From a virus, in IMG/VR virus record IMGVR_UViG_3300011115_000708, positions 1 to 64,000 of that record: DNA of 64,000 nt; one strand, written 5' to 3'. Positions within the stretch are counted from its first letter, which is position 1. Each line of letters starts with the position of its first letter. The translations under genes and the position numbers were made by a program. The notes under the pieces were generated by a model. That model had not been told where the DNA came from and ran no database searches. It saw only the letters and a list, made by a program, of their open reading frames with translations. This document shows positions 1-53,961 of the stretch, piece by piece.

Positions 1-1
1 T

Positions 2-340
2 CGGAGGTGGAGGGCAGACTTTGGGCATGAGGGGGCGAAGGTGTTGAGCGAGATCGAGGGCGGTGCGTGGGGTGGCAGACACACCAGGGGTGGGGGATTC
101 ACGGCAGACCTGGAGAAGTACCTGGCCGCATTCCTGAATGGGTGGACGGTGGTGAGGATCGGTGCTGGGCAGATCAACTCGGTGGTGGTGCAGGCGGTGA
201 TCGAGCAGGTGAGGACGAGGATGGGCGTGAGGGTGGGAGTGGGAGCGGCGGTGGGAGATAGCGCGGAGAGCGTGAGCCGTGGCGGTGATAGCGCCGAGAG
301 CGTAGCGGATAGCGCCGAGAGCGTGGAGTGGCTGCGGTGA
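2..340 (+). CDS. PD-(D/E)XK / VRR-like phage endonuclease, 3' part only
   Basis: The reading frame is open from the first bases of the window, so the N-terminus lies outside. The visible 112 residues read WRADFGHEG near the start, then EIEGGAW, RHTRG, LEKYLAAFLNGW and VVRIGAGQI. This matches the C-terminal half of small phage/bacterial endonucleases of the DUF559/VRR type, where an Asp and the E-x-G pair sit in the active site and the last strand reads GW-x-V-x-R. A Met at base 41 could start a shorter product, but the conserved D lies upstream of it, so I treat the gene as truncated by the window edge. After the nuclease core there is a low-complexity tail with DSAESV three times, encoded by near-identical 17-base repeats. 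The role is probably Holliday junction or branched-DNA processing; that part is inference. Confidence 0.6.
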   Translation, partial: RRWRADFGHEGAKVLSEIEGGAWGGRHTRGGGFTADLEKYLAAFLNGWTVVRIGAGQINSVVVQAVIEQVRTRMGVRVGVGAAVGDSAESVSRGGDSAESVADSAESVEWLR

Positions 341-341
341 A

Positions 342-394
342 TTTTTTTGATTTTTTTTTCGTTTTTTTTCGACCGTCGATTTTTTCTGGTTTTT
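342..394. other. Phased T-tracts (possible intrinsically bent DNA)
   Basis: Directly after the nuclease stop there are runs of 7, 9, 8, 6 and 5 thymines at 342-348, 351-359, 362-369, 380-385 and 390-394. The first three have centres about 10 bases apart, which is helical phasing and predicts curvature. No stem precedes them, so they are not a classical Rho-independent terminator. The rest of the gene-free stretch 341-636 is GC-rich with several GTCTG pentamers and holds no coding region I can support. Confidence 0.4.
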
Positions 395-581
395 CCTCCA
401 GCCTGTCTGCGCTCGGCGGCCTCGGCGGCCTCGGCGGGTGGATCGGGCGGGTTGTCGGGCGGTGATCTGGATGGATGGGGCCGCGCTGGCGCTGGGCGGT
501 GTCTGTGGGCTCGTCTGGCGGCCTGTCTGGGACTGGACAGCGGAAATGGGGTGCGGCCTGCCTGAGGGCCGTTTGCGGCGC

Positions 582-613
582 AAAAAAAGGGAGGCCGTTT
601 CGGGCCTCCCTTT
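582..613 (-). terminator. Rho-independent terminator, mainly for the minus-strand operon
   Basis: A perfect 8-bp stem, GGGAGGCC at 589-596 and GGCCTCCC at 603-610, closes a 6-base loop. It is flanked by seven A on the left (582-588), which become seven U on the minus-strand transcript, and by TTT on the right. It lies just past the 3' end of the minus-strand gene ending at 637, where a terminator for that operon is expected. It may also act weakly on transcripts from the left. Confidence 0.85.
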
Positions 614-636
614 GATGGGATGGGGGGATCGGGCCG

Positions 637-813
637 TCAGTATCGGCCTCGGGCCGTGGCGGTGAGCCAAGCGGTGGCAAGGGCCGCGATAGCGGCGGTT
701 AGCCATGCCATGGTCTGCACCACTCGGCCACTCGGCTCTGGGATGAGCTGTCTGCGACGGATGGTCGGGTCTATGATCCGAATCGGGGCGCGGTATGGGT
801 CGGGGGTGATCAT
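637..813 (-). CDS. Small single-pass membrane protein (58 aa)
   Basis: Not recognised by family. The protein starts MITPDPYRAP, has an Arg-rich middle (RIIDPTIRRRQ) and ends with one clear hydrophobic helix, AWLTAAIAALATAWLTA, before a basic tail. I chose the start at 813 because it overlaps the stop of the upstream gene in an ATGA junction, which implies translational coupling; a longer frame from 915 would run backwards through that gene. It is the last gene before the terminator. A holin-like or membrane-anchored accessory role is possible, but nothing in the sequence proves either. Confidence 0.6.
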   Translation of the reverse strand: MITPDPYRAPIRIIDPTIRRRQLIPEPSGRVVQTMAWLTAAIAALATAWLTATARGRY

Positions 814-1142
814 AGTCCTGCAGGGTTGGCGGCTAGTAGGTTGCGGATCTCGGCGAGGGCCTCGGTGGTGTCGGGGTCTGGGCTGGCCATGTCGTCGATC
901 CAGTCGGCGGCCCATTGCAGGGCCGTGACTAGGTCGCCTAGGCGGTGGAGCTGGGCTGATAGGTCTTCGATCTCCTGCAGGATCTCGTGAACGGCCACAA
1001 GGTCGTTGCCTGCGAGCTGGTAGAGTCCAGCGCCTGCGAGAATGTTAATCTCCTCGGCGATGGGGGTGCGGGGCCTGTCTGCTGGGTTGTCTGTGTCGAC
1101 GCTTGTCCAGCCTGCTGGGGTGTCTGTCGGTGGTGTTGTCAT
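810..1142 (-). CDS. Hypothetical protein, 110 aa
   Basis: Not recognised. It is acidic and mostly helical in character, with a Pro/Thr-rich first 25 residues followed by Leu- and Ala-rich heptad-like stretches (ILQEIEDLSAQLHRLGDLV), which suggests a small helical bundle or coiled coil. It lies between the 125-aa conserved gene (22 bases upstream) and the membrane microprotein it overlaps by four bases. Codon use and the CAGAC pentamer content match the rest of the operon. Confidence 0.6.
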   Translation of the reverse strand: MTTPPTDTPAGWTSVDTDNPADRPRTPIAEEINILAGAGLYQLAGNDLVAVHEILQEIEDLSAQLHRLGDLVTALQWAADWIDDMASPDPDTTEALAEIRNLLAANPAGL

Positions 1143-1162
1143 GGTGTTGTGGGGTGGGGTGG

Positions 1163-1540
1163 TTAGTATTCGGACGGCAGGAGGATCGTGGTGCCGTATC
1201 GTTCGCCGTGGCTGTTGGCGGCCTCAGTTATGATCCAGATCTTGAGGTTGTCGAACGAGGGCAGGTGGTAGGCTGAGATGATCCGTGCGCCCGTAATGAG
1301 GGCGCTCTCGTTGGCCTGCTTGTCCTCGTCGTCGAGGTCTCCCCAATCGCCGCTGATGTGGCAAAGGAGACAATGCCCGATCTCAAGCAAGGCTAGTTCG
1401 GTATGCTCAGCGATGAGGTGGCCCACCTCTTCGCTGTTGCGAATCGGGCCCGTGTCGAACTTGGATAACCCCAAGGTTGGTAGTGGCTTGGCTTGGTCTG
1501 CGGCGGCATGTTGCTCGTGGTCTGTTGCGTGGTGTATCAT
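1163..1540 (-). CDS. Conserved phage/plasmid protein (IGHCLLxH-GDWGDL family), 125 aa
   Basis: The segment LLEIGHCLLCHISGDWGDLDDEDKQANESA, seen here in pieces (GHCLLCHISGDWGDL, then DEDKQANESAL), followed by RIISAYHLP, WIITEA and TTILLPSEY, is the signature of a widespread short family on phages and plasmids. Its members are often labelled as type I restriction endonuclease subunit M, with no demonstrated activity. The family core is complete. There is no nuclease or methyltransferase motif. The gene lies in the minus-strand operon between the 283-aa ATPase partner and the 110-aa gene. I would not assign a biochemical function. Confidence 0.7.
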   Translation of the reverse strand: MIHHATDHEQHAAADQAKPLPTLGLSKFDTGPIRNSEEVGHLIAEHTELALLEIGHCLLCHISGDWGDLDDEDKQANESALITGARIISAYHLPSFDNLKIWIITEAANSHGERYGTTILLPSEY

Positions 1541-1625
1541 GTTGTTGTGTTGTTGTTTTGGTGGGATCTGTCTGCGATCCGCGAGCGCTGGGGGGTAGCG
1601 CTTTCGGCCCTCGCAAGGGGCCTCA

Positions 1626-2477
1626 TCAGGCGGTGGCGGCGGTTATGGTGAGGCCGTGCTCGGCGGCCCACCGGGTTATCGCCTGCCATGAACTGGCCGG
1701 GGTAGAGTCGTCTAGGTTGTTGGCAATCGGGAGAATCAGAGCCCCCGGCGGGAAAAGCTGGGCATCTTCGTTTGCGTCCCTTGAGAATCCGTAGCCGGAA
1801 TGAGTGAATTTTGCCCATCCATCAGATTCGTTCGCCTCCACTTGGCGGAAATATAAGCGGCGGTAAGTGGAAGGGCTGAGGGCTCCGGCTAACCTTGAAA
1901 GTTCCAGTGTATCTTCGGCCGCCTTGATTTGGATGATCACGGTTTGCTTGTGCTTGCTTGATCTGCTCGTCTCGGTCGAGAAGTGGCGGAAAAGTTCGCA
2001 GCGAATCACGTCATTTTCAAGCGCGTCAATAAGCCCACAAATTGCGGTTGCTTGGTTCGCGATGCTGCTTGCATTGGTTACGCAGCCAGAACTGCCGGGC
2101 ATGATGAGCGGCAAGACGGTTTTGCCTTTCCGCTCTCCGGGCGCTTTGCGAACCATGCTGCAAGGGTCGCCTGCTGCAGCTCGGGCTGCGTCCGGGAACA
2201 TCCCGGCAATATCGAAGCGCCGGGCGCGGCCTCGGGCTGTGGGTTTCGGCATGGCGGCCTTGGCTGTCTGGAGGGCTTTTAGCCCGGCTGGCCACCCAAG
2301 GCGCGCAAAGTCGAGTGCTTGCTGGAATGTTTCCGCCCCGGTAAAGTTGGTGCGCTCGTGGTTGTTTGTCTGCGTTCTTTGCTCGTAGCGAGCTTTGCGC
2401 CATGCTGGGCTTGCTTGGATCTTGGCGCAATCGTCTGCAAATGCTCCAAGGCTGTTGAATCGTTTGATGGTGTGCAT
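1626..2477 (-). CDS. Uncharacterised partner of the phage CobS-like ATPase (DUF7192-like), 283 aa
   Basis: This gene follows the AAA+ gene directly. Phage CobS/MoxR-like ATPases are commonly followed by a protein of this type, and the central region (GDPCSMVRKAPGE, VLPLIMPGS, IANQATAICGLIDALE) agrees with that family from memory. I chose Met at 2477 (MHTIKRFNSL), five bases after the ATPase stop. A longer frame from 2513 would overlap the ATPase by about 30 bases. No catalytic motif, signal peptide or membrane segment is visible. By analogy with MoxR/VWA pairs it may be the ATPase client or adaptor, but no MIDAS motif is present, so that is inference. Confidence 0.6.
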   Translation of the reverse strand: MHTIKRFNSLGAFADDCAKIQASPAWRKARYEQRTQTNNHERTNFTGAETFQQALDFARLGWPAGLKALQTAKAAMPKPTARGRARRFDIAGMFPDAARAAAGDPCSMVRKAPGERKGKTVLPLIMPGSSGCVTNASSIANQATAICGLIDALENDVIRCELFRHFSTETSRSSKHKQTVIIQIKAAEDTLELSRLAGALSPSTYRRLYFRQVEANESDGWAKFTHSGYGFSRDANEDAQLFPPGALILPIANNLDDSTPASSWQAITRWAAEHGLTITAATA

Positions 2478-2481
2478 GGGG

Positions 2482-3765
2482 TTAGTTTGCGAGGGTGTAA
2501 GCAAGGGTTTCACGAGCTACGGCGGTTTCATTGTCAAGCCGGGTGCGGCTGTCTGCGTCCATACCTTCGAGGGATAGGTTGACGGCATCGCCTGCGGTCA
2601 TTCCTGCCCGGAGGGCTTTGCAAGTGCGGTACGTCATGCGAGGGCTGATCACGTGGCGAATTGAGTGGAGCCGGGCAGCGGCTCGAAGTGCTTGGACGTA
2701 TTGCGCTACGGCTTGGCCGTGCTGGTGGAGCGCTCCGGCAATTGTGTTTTCAAGCTGCGGGTCGTAGTCCATCGCGATTCGAGCAAATCTGTCCATTGTG
2801 GCGGCATCCAGTTGGTTCCGCCCGACATACTCGCGGGAGGCTCCTGCGCCCCATGTGTTGGCTGAGGCGATGCACCGGAAATCTGGGTGACGCTTCACGC
2901 TGCCATCCGGGAAATCAAATTTTCCGTTCGACAAGGCGGCGTTGAATGCCAGCAGGGCGGCAGGGTCGCTAGCGTCGATTTCGTCGAATAGGAACAAGCC
3001 GCCGTGCTCGAACGCTTCGCGGAATGCGGTTCTGATGGTGCGGCCTTGGGCATCCACGAACCCGGTCAGCTTGTACTCGCTGGCCACGGCTCCGGTAAAA
3101 TAAAATGGGGTTTCGAGCGCTTCGGCGCATTGCTCGGCAATAGTGGTTTTTCCGGCCCCGGCTGGGCCTGCAAGAAAGACAGAATCAAAGGCGACAACCT
3201 GCAAAATTCTTGGAAAGGCGCAATGTCTCAGCCCGGCGGGAAGCTCCCGGCGTGTCTGCGGTGCTCCTTCCACGAAAACCGTGGTTTGAGGCGACTGCTG
3301 TGAGTGTTCCGCGATGAGTTCCAAAATTCTTTTTTCGTCGAGCATCCCGGCGGCTTCCTCGCGGATGATCCTTAAAATTTCTTCTCGGTCGAGCGCTGGG
3401 GCCGCTGGTGTGAGGGTGGCTAGGAGTGCCTCAAGGGCGGCTGATGTGGCTGGGCTTGGTGTTGTCATAGTTGCGGGTGTTGTGGTTGGTGTGGTCTGTG
3501 GGAGTTCTTGGCGGGGTGGTGTGGTTGGTGTTGGCAGGGTTTGGGTGCCGTCTGTGCCTGTCAGCGGTGGCAGGCCTCCAACGGCGCGCATGGCGTTGAG
3601 GCGGGTGTTGCTGAGGTCATTATAGACCTCGGCAAGCTCGGCGGTCGGGAGGTTTGCAATCTGGGCATATCTGAGGCCCTTGGCGGTGAGCCACTTTCGG
3701 ATTGCTCCTCTGTTGGTCGAGTTCACTACGGTATGGCCGTCTCTGGTTGGTGTTGTGTCTGTCAT
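2482..3765 (-). CDS. CobS/MoxR-type AAA+ ATPase, 427 aa
   Basis: The motor core occupies roughly residues 180-400. It shows Walker A GPAGAGKT (200-207), Walker B GLFLFDEID (256-264), sensor 1 ASANTWG with N303, and a candidate arginine finger in MDRF (R326). Around it are YKLTGFVDAQG and FDFPDGSVKRHPDFR, typical of phage CobS-like MoxR AAA+ proteins, which remodel or chelate protein/metal complexes. The first 65 residues (RGAIRKWLTAKGL, IANLPTAELAEVYNDL) form a small helical domain. They are followed by a Thr/Pro-rich linker at about 70-110 and a helical neck at 110-160. The start overlaps the stop of the 43-aa membrane protein in an ATGA junction. The phage role of this family is not established. 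Confidence 0.88.
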   Translation of the reverse strand: MTDTTPTRDGHTVVNSTNRGAIRKWLTAKGLRYAQIANLPTAELAEVYNDLSNTRLNAMRAVGGLPPLTGTDGTQTLPTPTTPPRQELPQTTPTTTPATMTTPSPATSAALEALLATLTPAAPALDREEILRIIREEAAGMLDEKRILELIAEHSQQSPQTTVFVEGAPQTRRELPAGLRHCAFPRILQVVAFDSVFLAGPAGAGKTTIAEQCAEALETPFYFTGAVASEYKLTGFVDAQGRTIRTAFREAFEHGGLFLFDEIDASDPAALLAFNAALSNGKFDFPDGSVKRHPDFRCIASANTWGAGASREYVGRNQLDAATMDRFARIAMDYDPQLENTIAGALHQHGQAVAQYVQALRAAARLHSIRHVISPRMTYRTCKALRAGMTAGDAVNLSLEGMDADSRTRLDNETAVARETLAYTLAN

Positions 3766-3893
3766 GGTCTTGTTGTGGTTGGGGTTGGTTCGTTGTGGCC
3801 GTCATCGGCAAATCCGCCGACAAGGGCAAGGAGGCCCAAGAGGGCCGCGATGATCGCGGCTAGGGCCAAGTCGTGTTTTGTGTTGGTGTCCAT
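3762..3893 (-). CDS. Membrane microprotein, 43 aa, coupled to the AAA+ gene
   Basis: This short gene reads MDTNTKHDLALAAIIAALLG and continues LLALVGGFADDG before a polar, Thr/Pro-rich end. The single hydrophobic helix covers roughly residues 9-29. Its TGA overlaps the ATG of the AAA+ ATPase (ATGA at 3762-3765), so the two are very likely co-translated. It is the first gene of the minus-strand operon. The topology would place a short N-terminus inside and about 14 polar residues outside, or the reverse. I know no family. It could anchor the ATPase complex at the membrane, which is inference. Confidence 0.65.
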   Translation of the reverse strand: MDTNTKHDLALAAIIAALLGLLALVGGFADDGHNEPTPTTTRP

Positions 3894-3903
3894 GGTCTGG
3901 GGC

Positions 3904-3920
3904 GTTGGCGCTCGGCCAAC
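3904..3920. promoter_or_regulatory. Inverted repeat in the divergent intergenic region
   Basis: GTTGGC at 3904-3909 and GCCAAC at 3915-3920 form a perfect 6-bp dyad with a 5-base spacer, 10 bases upstream of the first minus-strand gene. The 3894-4044 gap separates the minus-strand operon from the plus-strand small terminase gene, so both promoters should lie here. I see no convincing -35/-10 pair. The dyad may be an operator or a leader hairpin. Confidence 0.3.
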
Positions 3921-4044
3921 TCCGCGTGTGATACGGTTTCGAGGCCTGTCTGTCGAGGTTTTTATCTGGTTATTTTTTCTGGTGATTTTGTCGGGCTGTT
4001 TCGTGCTGGTTTTTAAGGGGTTTGAGCGTTAGTTGTCCTGGGTC

Positions 4045-4575
4045 ATGCACGAAAAAAACAAGGCGGGAGGTGGGTCTGCGGCGGCGGCTGGGGCCGTAGT
4101 CAATGGGCCTAGGGGGCGGTTTACGGGCGGGGCTGATCTCACTGACCAGCAAATTGCGTTCATTGAGCTGGTGGCCAATGGGAGGCCTCATCCTGCGGCG
4201 GCGGTGGCCGCTGGATATTCGGATTCGCGCGCTGGTTGGCGCTTACTACGCAATCCAGCCGTGGTCGCCGCCCTCAAGGAGCGGCAAGCGGCCCTCCTGT
4301 CTGGAGACCTGTCGGGCGTGGCCCTGTCTACGCTGCGCGCTGTCATGACTGACGAGACGGCCCCGGCGGCGGCGCGGGTGTCTGCGGCCAAGTGGACACT
4401 GGAGGCGGCTGGGCATGGCCTCGCGGCGGCGCTCGGGTCTGCGCGTCTGGGCCTCGACATTGCAGACAAGCCACTTTCGGCGCTCTCCCTGTCCGAGCTG
4501 GAGGCCATGGCGGAGCAAGCGGCGGCCTCGGTCGAGTCCATCAAGCGTGCGTCTGGCTCGGTGCTGGACGTTTGA
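4045..4575 (+). CDS. terS: Terminase small subunit
   Basis: The N-terminal domain reads LTDQQIAFIELVANG, AAVAAGYSDSRAGWRLLRNP and VVAALKERQAAL. This is the homeodomain-like DNA-binding fold of the Terminase_2 type, in which the phrase AAxxAGYS and a following NP-x-V-x-x-x-L are diagnostic. The second half is helical (DETAPAAARVSAAKWTLEAAG), as expected for the oligomerisation region. I chose ATG 4045 over a TTG at 4033 in the same frame. Small terminase subunits bind the packaging initiation site, which often lies in or near their own gene. The repeat-rich noncoding DNA just downstream fits that. The large subunit of this module is at 8657, separated by the fibre genes, which is an uncommon spacing. 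Confidence 0.8.
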   Translation: MHEKNKAGGGSAAAAGAVVNGPRGRFTGGADLTDQQIAFIELVANGRPHPAAAVAAGYSDSRAGWRLLRNPAVVAALKERQAALLSGDLSGVALSTLRAVMTDETAPAAARVSAAKWTLEAAGHGLAAALGSARLGLDIADKPLSALSLSELEAMAEQAAASVESIKRASGSVLDV

Positions 4576-5312
4576 CTACTAATCAAAGGCACATGCCCCG
4601 CAATTGCGCGCTAAGGGGTCTGTGGCGCGTCTGTCTGCGTTTTGGGGTATGTGTACCAATTCCAATTTCAAAGAGATTTTAGACTAACAGATCTCTAACA
4701 GATCTCTAACATGTTGAAAGTTGGCACGGAACGTGCGCGAAATGGATGTTTTCCTGTCTGCCTGCGCTCCCCGCGCGCCTGCGGCGCGGTTCCGCCTGCG
4801 GCGGGTTGGATGGTCTGCGCGGTCTGCGCGGTCTGAAAAGTCGGATGGCGGCGGAGCTCGGGGAGGCCGTCCGCCTGTCTGGGCCTGTCTGGCCTGCCTG
4901 TCTGAGCCTGCCTGTCTGAGCAGGCGGAGCCTGCGCCAAGCGGGGCGAAGCCCCGCGAGGGCGCGAAGGCGGCGGAGGCGGAGCGCGCGAAGCCGAGGCG
5001 GAGCCGAGGCGGCGCGAAATGTCGCTCGCTCGCTCCGCTCGCTCGTGGTCAGGCTCGCAGGCTCGCTTCCTGTTTTGACTTGCTCGCCTTGCTCGCTGTG
5101 AATAGCCTCACTGCGTTCGGGTGCTGTTCTGTTCTGCTCACTGCGTTCGCTTGGTTCGCTGCGCTCACTAGCCAGCGAGTGACCCCTGGCGGGGCCCCTC
5201 GGAGGATTTTCAGACTGGTTTCTTGGCCCCACCTAGAAAGTTTGGCTAGTTTGAAAGTTCCCTACTGCATTTTTTTCCTTGCATTACAGACAGCAGACAA
5301 TAATCTGCGCCC
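4576..5312. other. Noncoding, hairpin-rich region between terS and the fibre genes
   Basis: About 740 bases hold no gene I can support. From left to right there is an 11-base tandem repeat (4684-4711) and a hairpin GCACG-GAA-CGTGC (4724-4736). A dense run of GTCTG pentamers follows, eight within 4741-4920. Two adjacent perfect hairpins come next: GCAGGC-GGA-GCCTGC (4920-4934) and GCGGGGC-GAA-GCCCCGC (4940-4956). A low-complexity stretch of GCTCGCTC-type repeats runs to about 5100. Composition changes from very GC-rich to about balanced near 5200-5250. Plausible functions are a packaging (pac/cos) site, an origin, or a late leader. None is proven. Confidence 0.5.
4684..4711 (+). repeat. Iteron-like 11-bp tandem repeat
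   Basis: CTAACAGATCT occurs twice head to tail (4684-4694 and 4695-4705) and a third, partial CTAACAT follows. The 11-base period matches one turn of DNA, so a bound protein would contact the same face. It lies 110 bases after the terS stop. It could be a terminase-binding or replication-initiator site. Confidence 0.5.
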
Positions 5313-6302
5313 ATGCCAAAGCAAATTTTGAATGCCAATGGAGCAGCCGATGTGATCAATTGGTACGGCGGTGACGGAACCATGGCCGTATCTGGGCAGT
5401 TCAACAGCGGAAGCGTAAAGCTGCAAGTGTCAATCGACAATGGGGATTCCTGGTTTGATGCAAAAGATTCTGGAGGCAATTCATTGCTTTTAAGTGAAAA
5501 TGGTGCTATCAGTTTCTCAGTATCCCCATGTAAATTACGGGCAGTTATGGCGGGAGCTAGTGAAGCTGGAGGAACTCAACAAACCGAAACTCTCACTCTA
5601 GTAGGCCCATCTGCAGTGGCTGCTACTGTAGCGGTGTTGTTCCTGGCGAACCCAGCACTTGGCGACACCATCATGATTAGCAACGGAACGTCGAGAACCT
5701 ATACGTTCACATCAACAAGTGGAACCAACAACATCGTGAGGGGAGCAAACCTATCTGCCACACTCACGGCTATTGCCGCCAAGCTGGTTGCAGACGGATA
5801 CCCGACAGTGGCGAGCCTCGGAACTACCCTGACATTCACTGCGGCGACTGTTGGGACAGTAGGAAATGGTTACAATGTTCAGCTTGTAGGAGCATCACCA
5901 TTCTTCAGCGTAACTGGCAACTACAACTACTCTGGCGGGAAAGACGCTGGAGTCCTAACGGAATCTGGCAACATCACGCTTGAATTTGATTCTAGTTTCT
6001 TTGGATCATTTGTATTGTCTGTGCCAGTTCTAAAAGGAGACATCCGTGCAACCTGGGTTCAGAAGATTGCAAACGCTCTTCAGAACGAAAACCGAATTGG
6101 AAAAAATTACCAGGTCACAAACAACGGATCAATCATAACCATGACCTTCATCGGTTTAGACACATCGAATGACAGCACCTTGCGAGTAAGGGCCCTGAAT
6201 GGATCTCCAAGCCCAGGACTTCCAGCAACATACACGTCAGCAAATGGAACATTCGGTGTGACAACTCTTCCAATCGTAACGGTAGTAATCGAAGAGCGCT
6301 AA
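5313..6302 (+). CDS. Virion-associated protein of the fibre cluster, 329 aa
   Basis: Not assignable to a named family. It starts MPKQILNANG and has an N-terminal beta-rich part (YGGDGTMAVSGQFNSGSVKL, DNGDSWFDAKDSGG) of the kind seen in phage structural proteins. Two repeats of a mixed alpha/beta module follow: about residues 105-205 (GDTIMISNGTSRTYTFTS, VADGYPTV, LTFTAATVG) and 210-310 (FVLSVPVLKGDIRATWVQKI, YQVTNNGSIITMTF, NDSTLRVRALNG). It is the first gene after the noncoding region, and the leader carries CAGAC at 5287 and 5294. No signal peptide or membrane segment is visible. It is likely a tail or fibre component. The second module resembles part of the protein at 53962. Confidence 0.7.
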   Translation: MPKQILNANGAADVINWYGGDGTMAVSGQFNSGSVKLQVSIDNGDSWFDAKDSGGNSLLLSENGAISFSVSPCKLRAVMAGASEAGGTQQTETLTLVGPSAVAATVAVLFLANPALGDTIMISNGTSRTYTFTSTSGTNNIVRGANLSATLTAIAAKLVADGYPTVASLGTTLTFTAATVGTVGNGYNVQLVGASPFFSVTGNYNYSGGKDAGVLTESGNITLEFDSSFFGSFVLSVPVLKGDIRATWVQKIANALQNENRIGKNYQVTNNGSIITMTFIGLDTSNDSTLRVRALNGSPSPGLPATYTSANGTFGVTTLPIVTVVIEER

Positions 6303-43941: not shown

Positions 43942-44415
43942 TTAAACAGTAAAGCGGATCACCGAGCGGATCTTGCTCGCATCCCTGCGCTTCCTGTAGA
44001 CTCCATCTCCCTCTCTATCACCACCAGAGTTAGTGTTGCCTTCCACGGTCTGAACCATGCCGTTCTTGTCGATGTCGGCAACGCAAATTCCTATGTGCGA
44101 GAAGGTAAATACGACGATGTCTCCTCTGCGGATGTCGTTCTTGTGGGGCTTATGCAACTTGACCGAATCATCGACCGATAAGCACCATTTCTCGAAATCC
44201 CATGCTCCAGCAGTCTCTGGGCGCGGGAACGTGTATTTCTCGCCACCGAGAGAATGCTCTACGCACCAGCATACGAATGCGGCACACCATGCCCAAGGCC
44301 CAGAAGGCAACCATGTCGAGCGTTGGTATTCCTCGATCTTGGCCCCGCCATTGGTTTTCGTCTCACGCACACCCACCTGCGATTCCGCGGTCTTCGCTAG
44401 TTGTTCAGCAATCAT
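43942..44415 (-). CDS. CHAP-domain endolysin, 157 aa (module 2)
   Basis: SQVGVRETKTNGGAKIEEYQ then GPWAWCAAFVCWCVEHSLGG gives the CHAP entry with catalytic C44. FTFSHIGICVADIDKNGMVQ gives H107, followed by TVEGNTN, which closes the papain-like Cys-His-Asn/Glu site. There is no separate wall-binding domain. CHAP enzymes cut peptidoglycan amide or endopeptide bonds. It is the last gene of the second late operon, next to the terminator. It is mechanistically unrelated to the M15 lysin of module 1. Confidence 0.9.
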   Translation of the reverse strand: MIAEQLAKTAESQVGVRETKTNGGAKIEEYQRSTWLPSGPWAWCAAFVCWCVEHSLGGEKYTFPRPETAGAWDFEKWCLSVDDSVKLHKPHKNDIRRGDIVVFTFSHIGICVADIDKNGMVQTVEGNTNSGGDREGDGVYRKRRDASKIRSVIRFTV

Positions 44416-44642
44416 GCCTTTCGGTAAAGGTTGGCAAGACTACCGTCAATCGAAATTTTCCGTTTAGTGAGCATTCCCTGCGCGACAAGACGAGCAAGTT
44501 GCTGCTGTGCCGTATGTCTGTTAATCCGAGTTTTGACGATGTACTCAGCAAGTGTGAACTCATCATCCATCCTGTCATGGCTGATGTGCTGAGAGATTGC
44601 AAACTCAAGGCTGGATAATGCTTTTTGCGTTTTAGTTTTCAT
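44412..44642 (-). CDS. Small winged-helix protein, 76 aa
   Basis: FTLAEYIVKTRINRHTAQQQ then LARLVAQGMLTKRKISIDGS and LANLYRKA is a helix-turn-helix followed by a two-strand wing, as in small MarR-like or replication-regulator proteins. It overlaps the endolysin start by four bases (ATGA), so the two are co-translated. It could regulate late or lysis genes. The 91 bases upstream (44643-44733) contain AT-rich sequence but no clear promoter. Confidence 0.65.
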   Translation of the reverse strand: MKTKTQKALSSLEFAISQHISHDRMDDEFTLAEYIVKTRINRHTAQQQLARLVAQGMLTKRKISIDGSLANLYRKA

Positions 44643-44733
44643 ATGTCAATGTTTTGGCGATTTGTTTACACGTCTGTAATAACGTATAAAGAATTGGACG
44701 AAAAGTGGGTGTATTCGGGTATTGTATCACACG

Positions 44734-45465
44734 TTACAGAACTCCCATCGGAGAGATCCATTGTCCACCCTCATTGATGACGTGCCAGGCGTTCCACTGT
44801 CCGGTCTTGCTGTTGATCATTCCGTACAACCATCCTTGTCGCCACGCGAGTTTGGCAGGAGTTCGATCTGCATAGGTCATCAAGTCGATGTCAGCAAGGC
44901 ATCCTACCGAGTATGATGCTTGACCGTCAATGTGTCTGGCAATATATGTATCTGGACGGTGACAATGACCGCAAATGTTCGGCCCCCAATTATCATGGTG
45001 TGATCGAGAAGGAGATACCGTAGCGCGGAACCCATGAATGAGTTTCGGGCCGCCCTCGGGCATCTGGAGATACTTGGAGACGTGGTACGGAACCCACTTG
45101 ATCTTGAGCTTGCGGAACTCTTGCTCTGCTGCCTCCGCGAGGTTAGCGCAATGCTCACGCAAGATGCCGTCGGAACAATGAGTAGAGTGCAGCCATATCC
45201 TGTCATCATGATTTCCCAAAGTAAGGAATCCTGGCCGATACTCGGACAAGAACTGCATACCTGCATTGAAGTCCTCGGAGATTCCAAGTGCCTTCTCCTC
45301 GACCGAGCATCCTCGCCTCAGACTAGGAGCGTCGATGAAGTCACCGAGGTGAATCCGGTGATGCGGTTTCCATTCGGCAACGAAGTCGAAGAACTTCTTC
45401 TTTGCGCTCTCGCACACTAGGTTTCCATGCGAGTCACCGCAGACAACGAATTTTTTCCAACTCAT
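44734..45465 (-). CDS. Calcineurin-like metallophosphoesterase, 243 aa
   Basis: Metal-binding motifs in order: GDSHGN (D11, H13), HLGDFID (D42), GNHDDR (84-89), then HGFRA and GHCHRPDTY (H167 and H169 region). This is the complete two-metal site of the phosphoesterase superfamily. Phage members can act on nucleotides, on nucleic-acid ends or on host signalling molecules. The substrate cannot be told from sequence. The stop-start overlap with the SprT-like gene (ATGA at 45462-45465) places it in the late operon. Confidence 0.88.
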   Translation of the reverse strand: MSWKKFVVCGDSHGNLVCESAKKKFFDFVAEWKPHHRIHLGDFIDAPSLRRGCSVEEKALGISEDFNAGMQFLSEYRPGFLTLGNHDDRIWLHSTHCSDGILREHCANLAEAAEQEFRKLKIKWVPYHVSKYLQMPEGGPKLIHGFRATVSPSRSHHDNWGPNICGHCHRPDTYIARHIDGQASYSVGCLADIDLMTYADRTPAKLAWRQGWLYGMINSKTGQWNAWHVINEGGQWISPMGVL

Positions 45466-45764
45466 GATTTACTGATTTTGTTCATTAACGTATCTAACGC
45501 GGGAAAGAAAATGTTCTCGATTGAACGAACGATTGGTTCCTCTTCGATCCGTTCAGACCATGAATGCCCTGCTACAGCTAGTGATGCGTGTAGCATCTCA
45601 TGCCTAATCGTGTCAAGGAGCATCTTGTCGCTCTTTAGGCACTCGCGGGAGATTCTGATCTCCTTATCGTCGAACGACATCTCACCATAGTCGTCCATCT
45701 TCTTGATGACGATACGGAATCGAATCCCACCTATACAGATGGATCTTGGTGGCTTGAATGCCAC
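45462..45764 (-). CDS. SprT-like zinc metallopeptidase, 100 aa
   Basis: DTIRHEMLHASLAVAG carries H55-E56-x-x-H59, a gluzincin-type HExxH site, and ERIEEEPIVRSIENIF downstream offers the third Glu ligand. EIRISRECLKSDKMLLDTI before it is the usual strand and helix of short SprT/ImmA-like phage proteins. Possible roles are cleavage of a host repressor or of a phage structural protein. The target is unknown. It lies between the holin and the phosphoesterase. Confidence 0.75.
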   Translation of the reverse strand: MAFKPPRSICIGGIRFRIVIKKMDDYGEMSFDDKEIRISRECLKSDKMLLDTIRHEMLHASLAVAGHSWSERIEEEPIVRSIENIFFPALDTLMNKISKS

Positions 45765-45765
45765 A

Positions 45766-45927
45766 TCAGTCCTTCTTAAAGGCGTTGATCAAGCCAACGA
45801 GTGCAGTACCACCGGCAATGATCGCAGCAGCCTGTGCAGGTTGAAGGATGATGCCGAACGCAGTGGTGATCTGGATAAGTCCGCGCCATGTGGACTCCAT
45901 TTTCAAGTAATCGATCAAGGTCTTCAT
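45766..45927 (-). CDS. Holin-like membrane protein, 53 aa (module 2)
   Basis: MKTLIDYLKMESTWRGLIQI, then TTAFGIILQPAQAAAIIAGG, then TALVGLINAFKKD. It shares MKT, YLK, ESTWRGL, AxGIxL, AAI, and VGxINxFK with the 54-aa holin of module 1 at 28321, clearly the same family. It has two hydrophobic segments and a basic C-terminus. Its start overlaps the stop of the next upstream gene, and its stop lies one base before the SprT-like start. It should release the CHAP lysin. Confidence 0.8.
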   Translation of the reverse strand: MKTLIDYLKMESTWRGLIQITTAFGIILQPAQAAAIIAGGTALVGLINAFKKD

Positions 45928-46112
45928 TATTTTAGGTTCTTACGAATGATTGATGCGGCTGAGAGAACTGAGACAAGGATACCTGCAACAAGAGCAACGG
46001 TCTGCAACCAAGGGTTGAGATCGCCTGGGAGAGTTGCGACAATGCTGGCAAGCGGTGCTGATACACCAACGATTCCTTTGCCGGCGAGTGGCAGATGATC
46101 AAATGGATTCAT
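45927..46112 (-). CDS. Second small membrane protein of the lysis region, 61 aa
   Basis: MNPFDHLPLAGKGIVGVSAP followed by a hydrophobic stretch (LASIVATLPG) and a second (VALVAGILVSVLSAASI) ending RKNLK. The layout is like the gene at 29038 in module 1. I chose Met 46112, which overlaps the upstream stop by 14 bases; a longer frame from 46163 would intrude further. It is likely a holin partner or antiholin. No lipobox is visible. Confidence 0.65.
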   Translation of the reverse strand: MNPFDHLPLAGKGIVGVSAPLASIVATLPGDLNPWLQTVALVAGILVSVLSAASIIRKNLK

Positions 46113-46419
46113 CAGCAGGTTGAACGAGTTCGACAACTGGCGCGACGTACAGCACACTGCCATCCGGTTGCGGTTGGTAGATACTCAGATCAAACGCAGG
46201 AGCGGTGTGGTCGAGCTTGGCTACGGTGAGCGCAGCGTGGAACGCAGAATAAGCGGTGAGTGCAGCAACCGCGTTCTTACCGAACACCTCCAGCACCGCT
46301 GGATCAGCAGCGAGCGAATGCAGGTGTTTGAGTCGAGCTTCAACGAACGAGATCGTGTCGGCAGTTACCTGCTCGATCTCAGCGGCAGCGCGGAAGGCGG
46401 GAGTGATTGAGGTGTACAT
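46099..46419 (-). CDS. Hypothetical late protein between fibre and lysis genes, 106 aa
   Basis: It is helical and Ala-rich (PAFRAAAEIEQVTADTISFV, EARLKHLHSLAADPAVLEVF) with a beta-like end (DLSIYQPQPDGSVLYVAPVV). Not recognised. Its position after the fibre gene and before the holins suggests a fibre chaperone or lysis accessory. It starts nine bases after the fibre stop. Confidence 0.6.
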   Translation of the reverse strand: MYTSITPAFRAAAEIEQVTADTISFVEARLKHLHSLAADPAVLEVFGKNAVAALTAYSAFHAALTVAKLDHTAPAFDLSIYQPQPDGSVLYVAPVVELVQPADESI

Positions 46420-46428
46420 GAGTGTTAA

Positions 46429-48852
46429 TTATACTGGTTGGACAAAACGGATATTTGCCACCATATAGGCAAATGAAGCAAGTGGAGATGAGACATTGTT
46501 AATTGCTGCTCGCATACACGCACCAGATCTAACATTAAGATTGTTATGAAGTCGATTGATTCCAGTAATGGATAATACTACCGTACCACCAATCGACAAT
46601 TCACAACCGTAAGTAGATCCGCTAACCGTATTACGCAACTGGATATCATAAGCTTGTCCAGCAGTTATTTCAACAGCAGTAGAAGAAATTTTTGAAAATG
46701 CTCCATTTGAGGTAAATGCACCGTTGCCTGTTGACCCTACTAGATTAAAAGTCGTTGAAGTAACACCAGCAACTTCAAAAATTCCGTTTGCAGCAGTGTT
46801 ACCACCTACGTTTACAACCTCAACAAAGTCACCATTTGCTAATCCGTGTGACGAGCAAGTGATTTGAATTGGAGATGCGTTTGTCGCTCCAGTAATAAAG
46901 TTTGACTCATAACCCGCTCTTACTTTACCAATTACTCGCGCTTGATAAATTGTTGTGCTGCCAGATTTTTTGTTGAGCCGTATTCCAAAACCATTGCATC
47001 CAAATGCGGGAACAGTTAATCCACCAGCAAAAAGCTCTCCTACCGCAATGCGAAGAATATCATCTTCCGCAGTGCTACGAGCAAGTATTAGCTTGAAGTA
47101 TACAGACCAAGGAATCGAGAAATCAATAATAGTTCCATTTCCAGTTTCGGGAAAGTAGGTATAACTTTTGCCAGTCTCAACGATTGAAGGAGTCTGGATT
47201 ATAATTCCGTACTGACTGCCAGCAGTAGTTCCTGCTGCGTATCCAACGACGTAAGTCGGCCCCGTATAACTTCCAATACCAATACCGTTTACCGCTGTGC
47301 TTATTGCAGAAGGTGTGGAGGTAACAGGAAACTCTGCGATTGTTTTGTATCGAGCATCCCCATCATTGCGGTTAATCAGATCAGTTGCTCCTGCTGTGCC
47401 AGTTACATTTACTGCTGTTGGGCGAGCGGTGTTCGTAAACGCTGCGGTTCCAGCAAATGTCTGGTTGCCAGAGAACGACTGGTTATTGGAGAGTGTTGCA
47501 GTCTGGCGAGTAGTGCCGTTGATCTGCACAAACGATCCAGCAGTTGTAGTCCATACATCTCCATTTACAGGCGATGTTGGTGCTGCGCCGTGCGGCAGCT
47601 TTAAGTTGGCAGTAGTAGTAGTTGATGCAACAGTTGCCAGTATTCCACCAACATTCAAATTTTTTGTGATATAAGCTCCACCAGTCATCCGCAATGCGCC
47701 ACTTGAAAATGACGTTGATTGCTCTGGATTACTGAGCGAAACTATTTGGTTGAATGTCTGATCAGCAGTAAATGTCTGCGATTGATTGCTTAGAGCAATA
47801 GTTCCAGTTGCCCATGACGGAAATGAATATGAATAAGTACTTCCAATCGAATTAGAGAAATTGATTGATCTGTTTATGTTTAGCTCAATACTACCAGCAG
47901 TAGTTCCGATAGAGAAACTTCCACCAGCAACTCCACCTTCAGCAAATTCATCAAGTATTTGATCGTAAAGATTCAAATTTGATGCGCTAACATTTGTTGC
48001 TGATACATCTACTGCATTTACAGTATTAAAAGATGAATCGCCCAAATGATTTCTCAGTACTATAGTATCAATAGTTGCAGCAGAAGCAGCATCCGTAATA
48101 TCTGTACTGACAAGATAACGATTTTCCCACAGGGTAGCTCCACGCATCAATGCTTGTCCTTCAAGCGGAGTGGTGATGTCCACATCAGAAAGCTCGGTAA
48201 GCTCAAATCCATTCTGCACATGGACGTTAAGCTCAACGATCGTGTTGCCATTGATTCGGGTAATCACACCGAGATAGACTTGGTGGTAGGGAGCAGATGG
48301 TTTATTCGCCAATCCAAACAGCAGTCCACCAGCAGTAGTTGGTGAGAGCCAGATCGGATCTCCCTCGACGATGCCTGTTGGCTTAGAGATGCTCACCGTC
48401 AATCGACCCTCGGTTACAACGTAGCCGAACGCATTGTTGGCAAGTGTGGAGACGTTGATGCCGATCGTCTTGCTTGATGTCGCCTCAACGTCTGCCTTGG
48501 CGAGACCAATGATGATATTGGCTCCAGACGCTCCAGTGACGTATACAGCTTGTCCAGCAGCGATTGATTGTCCTGCCTTGGCGTAAAGCTCGAGACCAGT
48601 TGCCTTGCCTTCCACATGAGGTGCTGTGACCGTGCCAGTGAAGATTGGCGATGCGAGGTTGGCTTTTAGGTCAAGCGCAGTCTGGAGGTCGGTCTGGCTC
48701 GACAACGTGCCGGTAATCGATCCCCATGTATTGATGCCAGCAGCACCGGTTGGGCCTTGATTGATATAGACGATCGTTGGTTGATTGCCACCACCGATCA
48801 AGACCGAGGTAGGCCCAGAGAACGCTTCGATCTCAACAGTTTGAAGACTCAT
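46429..48852 (-). CDS. Tail fibre / receptor-binding protein, 807 aa (module 2)
   Basis: The first 250 residues have the phage fibre attachment style (IVYINQGPTGAAGINTWGSI, TDLQTALDLKANLASPIFTG) and a capsid-decoration-like segment (YAKAGQSIAAGQAVYVTGAS). A repetitive shaft follows (FTADQTFNQIVSLSNPEQST, FSGNQTFAGTAAF), then DLINRNDGDARYKTIAEFPV, a common transition before the tip. Near residues 665-730 there is a module like the FCCH-type insert often found in phage fibres: ASPIQITCSSHGLANGDFVE then VTSTTFNLVGSTG. The C-terminal part is beta-rich. It probably determines host recognition for the siphovirus-like particle. Confidence 0.8.
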   Translation of the reverse strand: MSLQTVEIEAFSGPTSVLIGGGNQPTIVYINQGPTGAAGINTWGSITGTLSSQTDLQTALDLKANLASPIFTGTVTAPHVEGKATGLELYAKAGQSIAAGQAVYVTGASGANIIIGLAKADVEATSSKTIGINVSTLANNAFGYVVTEGRLTVSISKPTGIVEGDPIWLSPTTAGGLLFGLANKPSAPYHQVYLGVITRINGNTIVELNVHVQNGFELTELSDVDITTPLEGQALMRGATLWENRYLVSTDITDAASAATIDTIVLRNHLGDSSFNTVNAVDVSATNVSASNLNLYDQILDEFAEGGVAGGSFSIGTTAGSIELNINRSINFSNSIGSTYSYSFPSWATGTIALSNQSQTFTADQTFNQIVSLSNPEQSTSFSSGALRMTGGAYITKNLNVGGILATVASTTTTANLKLPHGAAPTSPVNGDVWTTTAGSFVQINGTTRQTATLSNNQSFSGNQTFAGTAAFTNTARPTAVNVTGTAGATDLINRNDGDARYKTIAEFPVTSTPSAISTAVNGIGIGSYTGPTYVVGYAAGTTAGSQYGIIIQTPSIVETGKSYTYFPETGNGTIIDFSIPWSVYFKLILARSTAEDDILRIAVGELFAGGLTVPAFGCNGFGIRLNKKSGSTTIYQARVIGKVRAGYESNFITGATNASPIQITCSSHGLANGDFVEVVNVGGNTAANGIFEVAGVTSTTFNLVGSTGNGAFTSNGAFSKISSTAVEITAGQAYDIQLRNTVSGSTYGCELSIGGTVVLSITGINRLHNNLNVRSGACMRAAINNVSSPLASFAYMVANIRFVQPV

Positions 48853-49187
48853 GCTGGTCGTGTTACGAGTTTGCGGAATTTAGCAGTGCCTCCTGCAATG
48901 AAGATCACGTTGCCGGTTGGAGTGTCGAGGACAACGTCCCAGTAGTAAGTGCCAGGATCGACCGCGAGAGTCTGCTCATCGGTCTTGCTTACCAAGATCA
49001 CTCCGTTGTCCGGTGTTGGGATTGTCGGTGACAGGTCGAGGGTGACCGTGGACGAGGTAACGCTAGAACGGATCTGACCTCGGGCTGAGTAGCCGGTCAG
49101 CGGGAATGCCGCTCCTGTTTCGTCCTTGCATGAGAACGTCATTGTGAGCGTCTCTCCGCTGTAAAAGTCAAGATTCGTCCCCGCCAT
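48849..49187 (-). CDS. Small tail-tip/baseplate-like protein, 112 aa
   Basis: The beta-sandwich pattern FYSGETLTMTFSCKDETGAA, FPLTGYSARGQIRSS, GTYYWDVVLDTPTGNVIFIA, then GTAKFRKLVTRP is typical of small phage proteins that sit on the baseplate or head surface (Ig-like, BppU-N style). It overlaps the fibre start by four bases. I infer an adaptor between tail tip and fibre. Confidence 0.65.
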   Translation of the reverse strand: MAGTNLDFYSGETLTMTFSCKDETGAAFPLTGYSARGQIRSSVTSSTVTLDLSPTIPTPDNGVILVSKTDEQTLAVDPGTYYWDVVLDTPTGNVIFIAGGTAKFRKLVTRPA

Positions 49188-49240
49188 GACGCATCGTTAT
49201 CGTAAAGGAACCTAGATTGCAAGGGAGACGAGGATCGTCT

Positions 49241-50515
49241 TCATTTCCAGAGCAGTGTTCCTTCGTGGATCTGCTGGATGATTCCATCGCTATCGCAATA
49301 GCTCAGAGGGATGTATTTGACGGTGCTTGTGTTGGCTGGCAGAGTTGGCTCAGAAAAAGGCCCACGAACCCCTGTGACGCTACCAGCCGCTAAGTCTAAG
49401 GCGATGAACGTGTAAAGCGAAAGTGGAGAAGCGGCATTGAGCTGTATTACAACTGAGAAGTCTTCACCGCTGTTGAATGTGTCTTTTCCGTAAGTGGTTG
49501 CAATATAGATTCCACTAGGGTCGATCAGCTTCGATTCAGCACGCTGGGCGATTACTGATCCATAGTCAGTTAGCGTTGCAATGCCAGAGTCATTGATGGC
49601 TACGTTGTATGTGCCATCAGTCCATTTTTGAGATGACACCTCGGTCATCTCTGTGGGAAATGACATTACGTCAGAGTAAGCTGAGAGTTCTGTGTAAACT
49701 GAACCACCTTCATAGACGACCTGAACAGTGAAGGGCAAGCCTCCGGTATTAAGTGAGTCTCCATAAGCTGTTGAAGTTCCTGTGAATGTATTTCTCCCAG
49801 ATGGGGTAATGTAAGGAGGAGATGCCCCGCCAGGACATGACAATGTAAAATCCCAAGCAGTCCCCGCCAGCGGAGCTTCTACAATAACCTTCGCCCAAGT
49901 GGGTGATGCAGTCGTCTTCGTGAATGACGCAGTACCAGAACCAGAAACTGATCCAGTATTGATGACTACAGAACCATTGTACTCAACCTTAAAGGTGTCT
50001 GGAATAGGGTTTGCCTCGTAATACAGGGTAACGACGCCAGTGTCTGCCCCTAGGTCTACGATGAACTCTCCACCGCCTACACCACCATTCTGCTGCGAGG
50101 CATTGCACGCTATTCTTCCGTAGATCGGAATTGATCCTGCTGGCGCGGTAAAGATTACGTCGTCTGAGTCTCTAAACTCAACAACTCCAGTAGATGCATT
50201 GATGGTCAAATTGAATGGCACATCGGTTCTTGAGCTTATGTCTTCAGAACTCCATGTTTGATTAGTGAACTGCTTCATCCATCCATATGGGATTGTTGAG
50301 TTGGGAGAGTTCTTGATGAATAGGTTCCTTCCCGACCCACCTGCAAATCGAGGTGCAAAAGTTGTGGCTGTAGTATCAGGGTCTGGCGATGCGGCTTGAA
50401 CATCAGTTTTGCCAACGAAAAAGCTCCCAGTTGTCGCTGATGTGATGTCGATAACACTTCCAGTGTTTACCGTTAAGTCACCTATCGGGTCCCTGTTTAT
50501 CGTGAATTGTGGCAT
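49241..50515 (-). CDS. Tail-tip structural protein, 424 aa
   Basis: It is beta-rich throughout with low charge. A module at about residues 150-235 (DLGADTGVVTLYYEANPIPD, TFKVEYNGSVVINTGSVSGS, then WDFTLSCPGG) is a jelly-roll-like domain often seen in phage tail-tip proteins. GRNLFIKNSPNSTIPYGWMK and IPIYGRIACNASQQNGG precede it. It is not assignable to a named baseplate component. It lies between the hub-like gene and the small tail-tip gene. Confidence 0.65.
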   Translation of the reverse strand: MPQFTINRDPIGDLTVNTGSVIDITSATTGSFFVGKTDVQAASPDPDTTATTFAPRFAGGSGRNLFIKNSPNSTIPYGWMKQFTNQTWSSEDISSRTDVPFNLTINASTGVVEFRDSDDVIFTAPAGSIPIYGRIACNASQQNGGVGGGEFIVDLGADTGVVTLYYEANPIPDTFKVEYNGSVVINTGSVSGSGTASFTKTTASPTWAKVIVEAPLAGTAWDFTLSCPGGASPPYITPSGRNTFTGTSTAYGDSLNTGGLPFTVQVVYEGGSVYTELSAYSDVMSFPTEMTEVSSQKWTDGTYNVAINDSGIATLTDYGSVIAQRAESKLIDPSGIYIATTYGKDTFNSGEDFSVVIQLNAASPLSLYTFIALDLAAGSVTGVRGPFSEPTLPANTSTVKYIPLSYCDSDGIIQQIHEGTLLWK

Positions 50516-50517
50516 GG

Positions 50518-52212
50518 TTAAACGTAGACGATATTGTCCTGTGAGGTTTTTCTGATCTTGTCAACGATCGTTCGGTAGTCGTTTCGAGGAGGACATCCAA
50601 GGTTGATCGTAGTAGATCCTGTCTTAATATCAAGTATCTCGCTCTCAACAAGTGCGCCCATGGATGTGAATGCTGGCAGCGAGTTGCTGATGTTGATTCT
50701 ATTGCCTCGGTATCTTGTGCCGCCAACGTCCTCTTGGACAAGATTGATTGATCCTTCGTACGGCAGCCAACTCTGTGCTGCTTGAAGGAATGCAGCGAGT
50801 CCTGCTGGCGGGAAGATGAAGGAGTAATCTGATGGAGCGTACACGGTCCCGCCAGTTGCTGTAGTTGCCTTAACAGCCATGCTGAATGGCGTTGCTCTTA
50901 TTAACAATGATCGATTTTCTGGGTAAGCACCAGTCCCTTGAAATCCACTTGTATTTATTGACCAACCAATAGTTTTAGAAAAGTAATCATCAGGTATTGA
51001 GATTGATGGTGTTCCATACCCATTATCTCTGTATTGCGCCCAAATTAGCCAACCGCTTAGAGTGGCATCAATAACTGGGGTGGTTATCCATGAGGGAACT
51101 GAGGCAGTTGTTAGGATCTTGTATGTCGAATTGAGTTCTGTACCTTGTGCGTTTTTTAATGAGTTACCAGGTAATGAAAAGGCATTTAATGTTGCGTACC
51201 TTGCCTGACCAAACTCTTGTCTGATGTTCCATAGATTTGCTGCATAATACCCAAATCCAATTGGCATATGCGCAACACCGGCATTGGCTTTTGCAATATC
51301 AAGCATTTGGCTTGATGACCTGTCAACAACGGTGATGTTGGCTGTGTCGTACTTGAAGTTTGGTAGGTAGGTATCAAGCTCAGGCCCAGAGATAGTCAGA
51401 ACCTGCCTTGTTTCTCTAGGCCCAGATCCAGATTCCTGCTTGACGAATTGTGTGAGTCCAGTGCTAGATCTTGTGACGTATGGTAATGACACGTTCGACA
51501 CTTGAAGCTCGATGATGGGATTGATGTCGATCGATGTAATCGGATCGGTTGCAGCATTGAATGTGACGGAGCCAGCACTTGCCGTCCTACGCTCAACGTA
51601 CATTCTGGCTGGGGTTACCGAGTAGTCGAACCAGACCATAGTATCTGGCACAAGTCTCACAAGCTCAGATAGAACCTGCCCGCAGGTTGACTGGTTGAGC
51701 GTGATCCTCGGGAAGGTGGTCATCGTTGCGCAGTTTGATCCAGCACCGGTCGTAGCAACTGGAACTCCGAGTGCTGCACATCGGTCGATCACAGAGTGAA
51801 TGCTTGTCCTTAGATCTTGACCAGTGGACGCAGAGCCAAAGACTGCGCTCAATCGTTCAGCGGTGTTACCCGCGCCGTCCTGTAAGTTCGTTGTGAACCC
51901 AATGCGCTCCATCCACCACCAAGGCCCAGAGACGGTTACCTGGACTTGCTGTGAATCGCTGCTGATCGCGTTACGCACGTTGGTCACAGTGCCGTGGAAG
52001 AACTGTACACCATCACGATACAACGTCATCGACTGCTTCAGTTCTGGGATCGTAGCCGAGGTGATCGCCTCTGGTGAAATCGAGAACGTGAAGGTGTCCT
52101 CGGCAAGAGACTTGAATGCAAGTTGCGCTGAGTCGATCTGAGCAGCCTCAAGAGAACGGACTGTTGCGTCGAACGTCTTCCCTGACTCTCCTTTGATTGT
52201 CCATGCGATCAT
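50518..52212 (-). CDS. Tail hub/distal tail protein, 564 aa
   Basis: Its position right after the tape measure gene and the N-terminal pattern (IAWTIKGESGKTFDATVRSL, EAAQIDSAQLAFKSLAEDTF, TLYRDGVQFFHGTVTNV, VTVSGPWWWMERIGFTTNL) match phage tail hub proteins of the gp27/Tal N-terminal type, where a VxGxxWxLxR/ER-like segment is common. NQSTCGQVLSELVRLVPDTM and the following YSVTPARMYVERR fit the same fold. It would cap the tail tube and carry tip and fibre proteins. Confidence 0.7.
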   Translation of the reverse strand: MIAWTIKGESGKTFDATVRSLEAAQIDSAQLAFKSLAEDTFTFSISPEAITSATIPELKQSMTLYRDGVQFFHGTVTNVRNAISSDSQQVQVTVSGPWWWMERIGFTTNLQDGAGNTAERLSAVFGSASTGQDLRTSIHSVIDRCAALGVPVATTGAGSNCATMTTFPRITLNQSTCGQVLSELVRLVPDTMVWFDYSVTPARMYVERRTASAGSVTFNAATDPITSIDINPIIELQVSNVSLPYVTRSSTGLTQFVKQESGSGPRETRQVLTISGPELDTYLPNFKYDTANITVVDRSSSQMLDIAKANAGVAHMPIGFGYYAANLWNIRQEFGQARYATLNAFSLPGNSLKNAQGTELNSTYKILTTASVPSWITTPVIDATLSGWLIWAQYRDNGYGTPSISIPDDYFSKTIGWSINTSGFQGTGAYPENRSLLIRATPFSMAVKATTATGGTVYAPSDYSFIFPPAGLAAFLQAAQSWLPYEGSINLVQEDVGGTRYRGNRINISNSLPAFTSMGALVESEILDIKTGSTTINLGCPPRNDYRTIVDKIRKTSQDNIVYV

Positions 52213-53960: not shown

Positions 53961-53961
53961 C

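Follow-up and report, generated by a model that had tools for sequence, protein, structure and literature searches.

The window analysed here, bases 1-64000 of the 81,028-bp IMG/VR virus record IMGVR_UViG_3300011115_000708, carries on its minus strand a tightly packed operon of six genes (3893-637), which includes our main subjects, an AAA+ ATPase and its partner protein from the family DUF7192. In the direction of transcription, the operon comprises a single-helix membrane peptide of 43 amino acids (aa; 3762..3893), predicted from hydropathy and codon usage; the 427-aa ATPase (2482..3765); the 283-aa DUF7192 protein (1626..2477), for which the listed frame of 295 aa starts at an upstream GTG and the 283-aa form was used; a 125-aa protein whose family also occurs on plasmids (1163..1540); a 110-aa soluble protein (810..1142); and a 58-aa peptide whose N-terminal half is basic and whose hydrophobic stretch is C-terminal (637..813). 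ATGA overlaps of 4 nucleotides (nt) join the 43-aa gene to that of the ATPase and the 110-aa gene to the last gene. The operon is followed by an intrinsic terminator (582..613), a hairpin of -20.8 kcal/mol (z -3.35) and then T7, and is flanked upstream by a divergent gene for a terminase small subunit (4033..4575, plus strand; phrog_641 and phrog_51, 1.3e-7). The same divergent arrangement is seen in the three nearest relatives of the locus (L001-L003), whose ATPases are 68-69% identical to that of the window in the best segment. With a codon-usage model trained on the ATPase and partner genes, the 43-, 125-, 110- and 58-aa genes each scored positive in the annotated frame alone and negative in the other five. 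The open reading frames (ORFs) of the six-gene operon, including the overlapping genes at its two ends, are as given in a preliminary description made from the sequence.

The ATPase matches Pfam AAA_5 (7.6e-12) and phrog_249 (7.3e-54), and its relatives occur in 422 of 50,697 phage records (E 1e-5). In the predicted structure, which has a predicted local distance difference test (pLDDT) score of 84.7, an N-terminal helical segment (residues ~9-66) is joined by a low-confidence linker (66-125) to an AAA+ module (~173-423) that comprises Walker A, a helix-2 insert hairpin (strands 236-237/243-244 within helix 2), Walker B, a pre-sensor-1 β-hairpin (282-285/288-291), sensor 1, an Arg finger and sensor 2. 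Residues G200, G203, G205, K206, D261, E262, N303, R326 and R376 are invariant among 36 sequences. NorQ and CbbQ were the best PDB matches to the model using Foldseek (E to 6e-14), and the VIA comparison gave overall Z scores of 20-21 for CbbQ/NorQ, with 21.4 for CbbQ2 and 20.9 for NorQ. A profile of the ATPase searched against PDB sequences matched midasin, CobS, CbbQ and NorQ. We therefore assign the protein to the CbbQ/GvpN/NorQ/CobS (MoxR-like) type, from which we infer a hexameric ring.

The partner (PF23822, 2.7e-30; phrog_1909) looks like a compact von Willebrand factor A (VWA) protein with a degenerate metal site, as judged from its model (pLDDT 84.9, predicted template modelling score 0.82). 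The first four rows of a Foldseek search against the PDB were all NorD VWA domains taken from NorQ-NorD complexes (best E 2.3e-3), and VIA gave a Z score of 8.2 for the NorD VWA domain (177 residues, 9.1 Å), followed by Rea1 MIDAS at Z 7.0-7.7, including row 6qtb_D with 145 residues at 3.5 Å, and then further VWA domains. Rows for Ku, TFIIH and integrin in the VIA lists were taken to reflect the common VWA core only, and absence of a family from these lists was not treated as exclusion. Against a library of viral models, the closest matches were DUF7192 itself and then phage CobT/VWA proteins (E ~1e-4). We also compared a DUF7192 profile with one built from 20 CobT VWA domains, drawn from CobT loci of the alphaproteobacterial class to which the genome of L105 belongs; the score was 34.3, while 200 column-shuffled profiles stayed at or below 26.0 and the reversed profile gave 13.7. 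This alignment pairs the invariant-glycine segment and the strand of the metal-ion-dependent adhesion site (MIDAS) with CobT VWA, such that the invariant G92 and G103 fall within a segment aligned to the CobT stretch before the MIDAS strand, where model confidence is low. The canonical MIDAS motif DxSxS is replaced by PGSSG at residues 127-131 of the window protein, and the first MIDAS position varies within the family (N in 17, D in 10 and P in 7 of 40 members). We read DUF7192 as a VWA partner because separate searches with the ATPase and DUF7192 models find the two halves of one machine.

The pairing of the two genes was assessed in the best 80 of 92 viral loci with ATPase relatives, reduced to 40 by dereplication at 85% ATPase identity. 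Iterated profiles found DUF7192 after the ATPase in 78 of the 80 (38/40 after dereplication), and the two exceptions, L059 and L072, have an ATPase that is cut by the end of the contig. The pair is also present in 24/27 prokaryote genome loci, a count from which one self-match of L108 was dropped; L090 is cut by the contig end, and L108 and L109 hold distant ATPases. These 27 loci were found with the ATPase alignment, and the window DUF7192 protein itself gave no relatives in the genome contigs. The Pfam DUF7192 model confirmed the partner in 10/10 bacterial genomes and 9/10 viral records tested, and the one miss (L045) was also the weakest in the iterated profile. All five annotated phages that were opened and carry the ATPase have the pair, namely phiM5 (a phage of Sinorhizobium meliloti), LeBron (Mycobacterium smegmatis), Tunturi_4, P106B, in which two small ORFs lie between the two genes, and Staphylococcus phage vB_Sau_S24; the first two infect bacteria used as laboratory hosts. 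LeBron (L134) has two DUF7192 genes, gp127 beside the ATPase gp128, and gp120 ~3 kb off. In the bacterial family of an Epilithonimonas locus, DUF7192 was detected in 3 of 197 genomes (E 1e-3), two of them above the cut-off and both of these seeds, so the pair is rare in that family. These data bear out the earlier claims of a CobS/MoxR-like ATPase with a conserved partner, on the grounds of linkage, modelled folds and invariant AAA+ residues, and of a pair that is frequent in phages. They also show that the core of the operon is the ATPase and DUF7192 rather than a framing by membrane peptides.

It is probable that the pair forms a remodelling motor of the MoxR/CbbQ type, in which a hexameric ring would be served by DUF7192 as a dedicated VWA-like adaptor. 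DUF7192 would then be a VWA domain pared down to its fold and a finger that inserts into the ring, its metal site being degenerate. Passages on NorQD (PMC13036017) describe a VWA finger that enters the ring pore and is rotated on ATP binding. By analogy, DUF7192 may plug the ATPase ring, and ATP hydrolysis could rotate or pull it, thereby remodelling a bound protein complex in the course of infection. The additions seen in this clade, namely the N-terminal segment of the ATPase, the 125-aa protein and the 58-aa peptide, probably choose or localise the target. According to sections of PMC9976466, NorD requires its MIDAS to activate the target and not to bind the ring; the loss of this site suggests another way for DUF7192 to hold its target, perhaps via the ATPase N-terminal segment or the extra operon proteins.

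Among known systems, NorQ-NorD (PDB 9qh4-9qhg) is the best structural match for both window proteins, and has the same gene order of ATPase then VWA partner; its finger segment before the MIDAS strand may have a counterpart in DUF7192. DUF7192 differs from NorD in that it lacks the N-terminal target domain and linker and has a degenerate metal site, and no nitric oxide reductase is involved. The systems CbbQ-CbbO, CobS-CobT and Rea1/midasin share an AAA+ module of the same clade and a VWA/MIDAS partner or domain, whereas here the partner is a stand-alone 283-aa domain and the ATPase scores far under the CobS cut-off. Virus-encoded MoxR-VWA pairs are already described in passages of PMC4124505, PMC7911831 and PMC2147016. 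By description, the window pair resembles p618/p892 of Acidianus two-tailed virus (ATV) and the haloviral aaa/vwa genes, in that a virus encodes a MoxR-type ATPase with a VWA protein. A role as virion-assembly chaperone is proposed for the ATV pair in part of PMC4124505, and the haloviral VWA protein, unlike DUF7192, has a canonical MIDAS, as stated for halovirus Hardycor1 in part of PMC7911831.

The operon had been proposed to be a membrane-located machine framed by membrane peptides, and this view is supported in part, with the membrane peptides borne out for this clade only. The best 19-residue hydropathy is 2.60 for the 43-aa peptide, a clear helix, and a marginal 1.45 for the 58-aa peptide, compared to 2.32 for the counterpart of the latter in L001. 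In L001-L003 the ATPase gene is followed by those for DUF7192, a 125-aa-type protein and then a peptide of 57-59 aa that has a C-terminal helix. The similarity of the 58-aa peptide to that of L001 is weak, with 8 of 2000 part-wise shuffles reaching the alignment score; since L001-L003 keep a counterpart that is similar beyond shuffles, operons of this clade probably share a tail-anchored peptide at their end. No relative of the 110-aa protein was found in L001-L003, neither this protein nor the 58-aa peptide (the latter by tblastn) has relatives in the viral contigs, and the 110-aa protein matched nothing in Pfam, PHROG, NCBIfam or PADLOC. Upstream of the ATPase, L001-L003 have a soluble ORF of 80-83 aa, which stops 28 nt short of it. 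The 43-aa peptide is missing there, so that homologous loci without the microproteins do exist, and no similar ORF occurs in the other fetched loci; on sequence comparison, this peptide has so far been seen only in the window operon.

As a general feature, framing was rejected upstream, where a small hydrophobic ORF lies within 400 nt of the ATPase in only 2/39 dereplicated viral loci, compared to 8.6% of random windows. A looser cut gave 10/77 viral loci, including the close case of L009, in which a 29-aa peptide ends 21 nt short of the ATPase. Downstream of the pair, small hydrophobic ORFs occur within 1500 nt in 16/34 loci, compared to 37/191 behind other genes. This excess seemed significant against such generic windows, but was not upheld by a better-matched control of same-strand windows further downstream (p 0.07-0.21). 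A membrane location of the machine is plausible for this clade only.

The family of the 125-aa protein, as found by tblastn, occurs in 154 of 72,556 plasmid records and in 3 of 50,697 phage records, and some plasmid records name it type I restriction endonuclease subunit M. A homologue is present in 9/80 viral loci, on the same strand and downstream of the pair. These nine are among the 11 viral loci with the ATPase N-terminal segment, and the other 69 loci have none (0/69); the phages concerned are related. Plasmid members are ~100 aa long (L136, L137, L141-L148), with a zincin-like metallopeptidase gene nearby in 3/10 plasmid loci and mobC in 2/10. An obligate link between this protein and the motor was not supported, as two plasmid loci, the two of ten that were profile-searched (the other eight were read by annotation), and the phage locus L135, opened for its 125-aa homologue, have the protein without ATPase or DUF7192, in the case of L135 within 12 kb. 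The family may supply mobile elements with an accessory or anti-restriction function.

Several observations weigh against reading the partner as a VWA adaptor. Its fold scores are modest, with no PDB match by Foldseek at E <1e-3, a Z score of ~8 is near the reach of unrelated folds, and the top row has a whole-chain root-mean-square deviation of 9.1. The HHalign probability for DUF7192 against CobT VWA is ~31%, a search of PDB sequences with the DUF7192 profile gave no match at E up to 10, and the likely finger segment (residues ~80-118) is modelled with low confidence. To these can be added that target activation by NorD requires an intact MIDAS, as reported in part of PMC9976466, and that the window protein is without one. 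The modest scores and the low-confidence loop would also fit a partner with another α/β fold and a pair belonging to a different AAA+ system. We consider this unlikely, as the top four PDB rows and the next viral relatives are all VWA domains of MoxR partners, the DUF7192-CobT profile comparison beats 200 of 200 shuffles, and the separately run ATPase search points to the same NorQ-NorD complex. A further explanation takes its cue from the label of phrog_249, porphyrin biosynthesis, which has been reused from PHROG 249 in some phage records, and from the match of the ATPase profile to CobS: the pair could be a CobS/CobT-type cobaltochelatase that hijacks host CobN and raises cobalamin synthesis, as Liu and co-workers proposed for viral CobST in part of their account (PMC8651126). 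However, the ATPase scored 29.2 bits with the NCBIfam CobS model TIGR01650, where the cut-off is 558.55, its best structural matches are CbbQ and NorQ, and DUF7192 lacks both the CobT N-terminal part and DxSxS. A search of the 81-kb record, the assembly of which is uncertain, gave no CobN and no ribonucleotide reductase. Cobalamin synthesis is thus unsupported for the window pair, and we regard it as very improbable.

If the pair is a remodelling motor with a VWA-like adaptor, the virion is slightly favoured over a host complex as its target. In 24/40 dereplicated viral loci, the opposite strand carries packaging or tail genes upstream of the pair (terL of three unrelated families, terS, portal and collar), as it carries terS in the window, and in 1/40 (L005) such genes lie downstream. 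This suggests that the pair keeps to one position at the border of the structural module and, together with the ATV precedent, in which the virion protein p618 binds both tail proteins and the VWA protein p892 (part of PMC4124505), favours a virion-assembly chaperone acting on packaging, head or tail proteins. We hold this role to be possible and propose it tentatively, given that transcription of the pair runs away from the structural genes, that the pair occurs on Bacteroidota chromosomes with no evident phage genes nearby (six loci read), and that packaging clusters are shared by 0/23 dereplicated genome loci. The alternative is that the machine acts early and remodels a complex of the host, perhaps at the membrane via the 58-aa peptide, in takeover, exclusion or counter-defence, and this we find rather doubtful. 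It would suit an operon that is the first on the far side of terS, although the order of DNA entry is an assumption; it would also suit the retention of a C-terminal membrane peptide in L001-L003, and a 125-aa family that is otherwise mainly plasmid-borne and near metallopeptidase or mobC genes. In bacteria, restriction genes lie near the pair at two loci (McrBC at L098 and HsdR at L100), for which membership of defence islands is possible. Five flavobacterial loci have a response-regulator-like gene 114-133 nt upstream and a sixth has one ~2 kb upstream, as checked with Pfam for L098. Membrane peptides, as described above, do not recur upstream and do not do so significantly downstream. A PADLOC scan that covered the ATPase, the partner and the 125- and 110-aa proteins returned only short, weak P-loop matches of the ATPase to IetA and PDC-S01. 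An extended form of the early-acting scenario, in which DUF7192 is a minimal, MIDAS-less VWA adaptor of a separate AAA+ lineage found in phages and, sporadically, next to restriction genes in Bacteroidota, and the operon, placed opposite the packaging start and entering early, disarms or rebuilds a host complex while the 58-aa peptide brings the ring to the membrane, seems improbable.

No sigma-70-like promoter was found in 1-5400. The leaders of the operon genes are A/C-rich and without a clear Shine-Dalgarno site, other than an AGGA 2 nt before the start of the 58-aa gene. Elsewhere in the window, a Shine-Dalgarno-like core precedes 1 of 30 plus-strand starts (5313-43758), compared to 14.7% of random positions, and the leaders of these 30 ORFs are A/C- or A-rich, which suggests a host in which Shine-Dalgarno sites are not used. 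A search for over-represented words that might serve as an uptake or recognition signal gave nothing strong. The G+C content is 0.58-0.62 in window 1-6000 and 0.43-0.55 elsewhere, so the operon and the gene for the terminase small subunit may have been acquired recently. Two phage structural modules are present in the record. One, at 4033-36965 on the plus strand, is podovirus-like (TerL phrog_38, portal phrog_12082 and a packaged-DNA-stabilisation-like protein). The other, at 44000-64000 on the minus strand, has Portal_Mu (59890-61575), a Mu-like protease (58035-59099) and a GP7-type capsid protein (57087-58022). This could mean that the assembly is chimeric or that a Mu-like block is nested within a different phage. 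The ends of the 81-kb record form a near-repeat over 638/690 positions, 92% (window 2-678 and L082 14028-17028), and are identical in the last stretch, which holds the terminator and the final part of the 58-aa gene. This suggests that the genome is circular or terminally redundant and that two strains went into its assembly.

The window proteins belong to PHROG 249 and to PHROG 1909/Pfam DUF7192, families that were known before and are either without function or labelled porphyrin biosynthesis; the new part is the reading of DUF7192 as a VWA adaptor. A partial literature search found no paper that names DUF7192 or describes it as a compact, MIDAS-degenerate VWA adaptor. The porphyrin label on PHROG 249 can give rise to accounts of cobalamin in viral ecology. 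Seeing a VWA-like adaptor in the gene that follows the ATPase would make this unknown pair a remodelling machine that can be tested.

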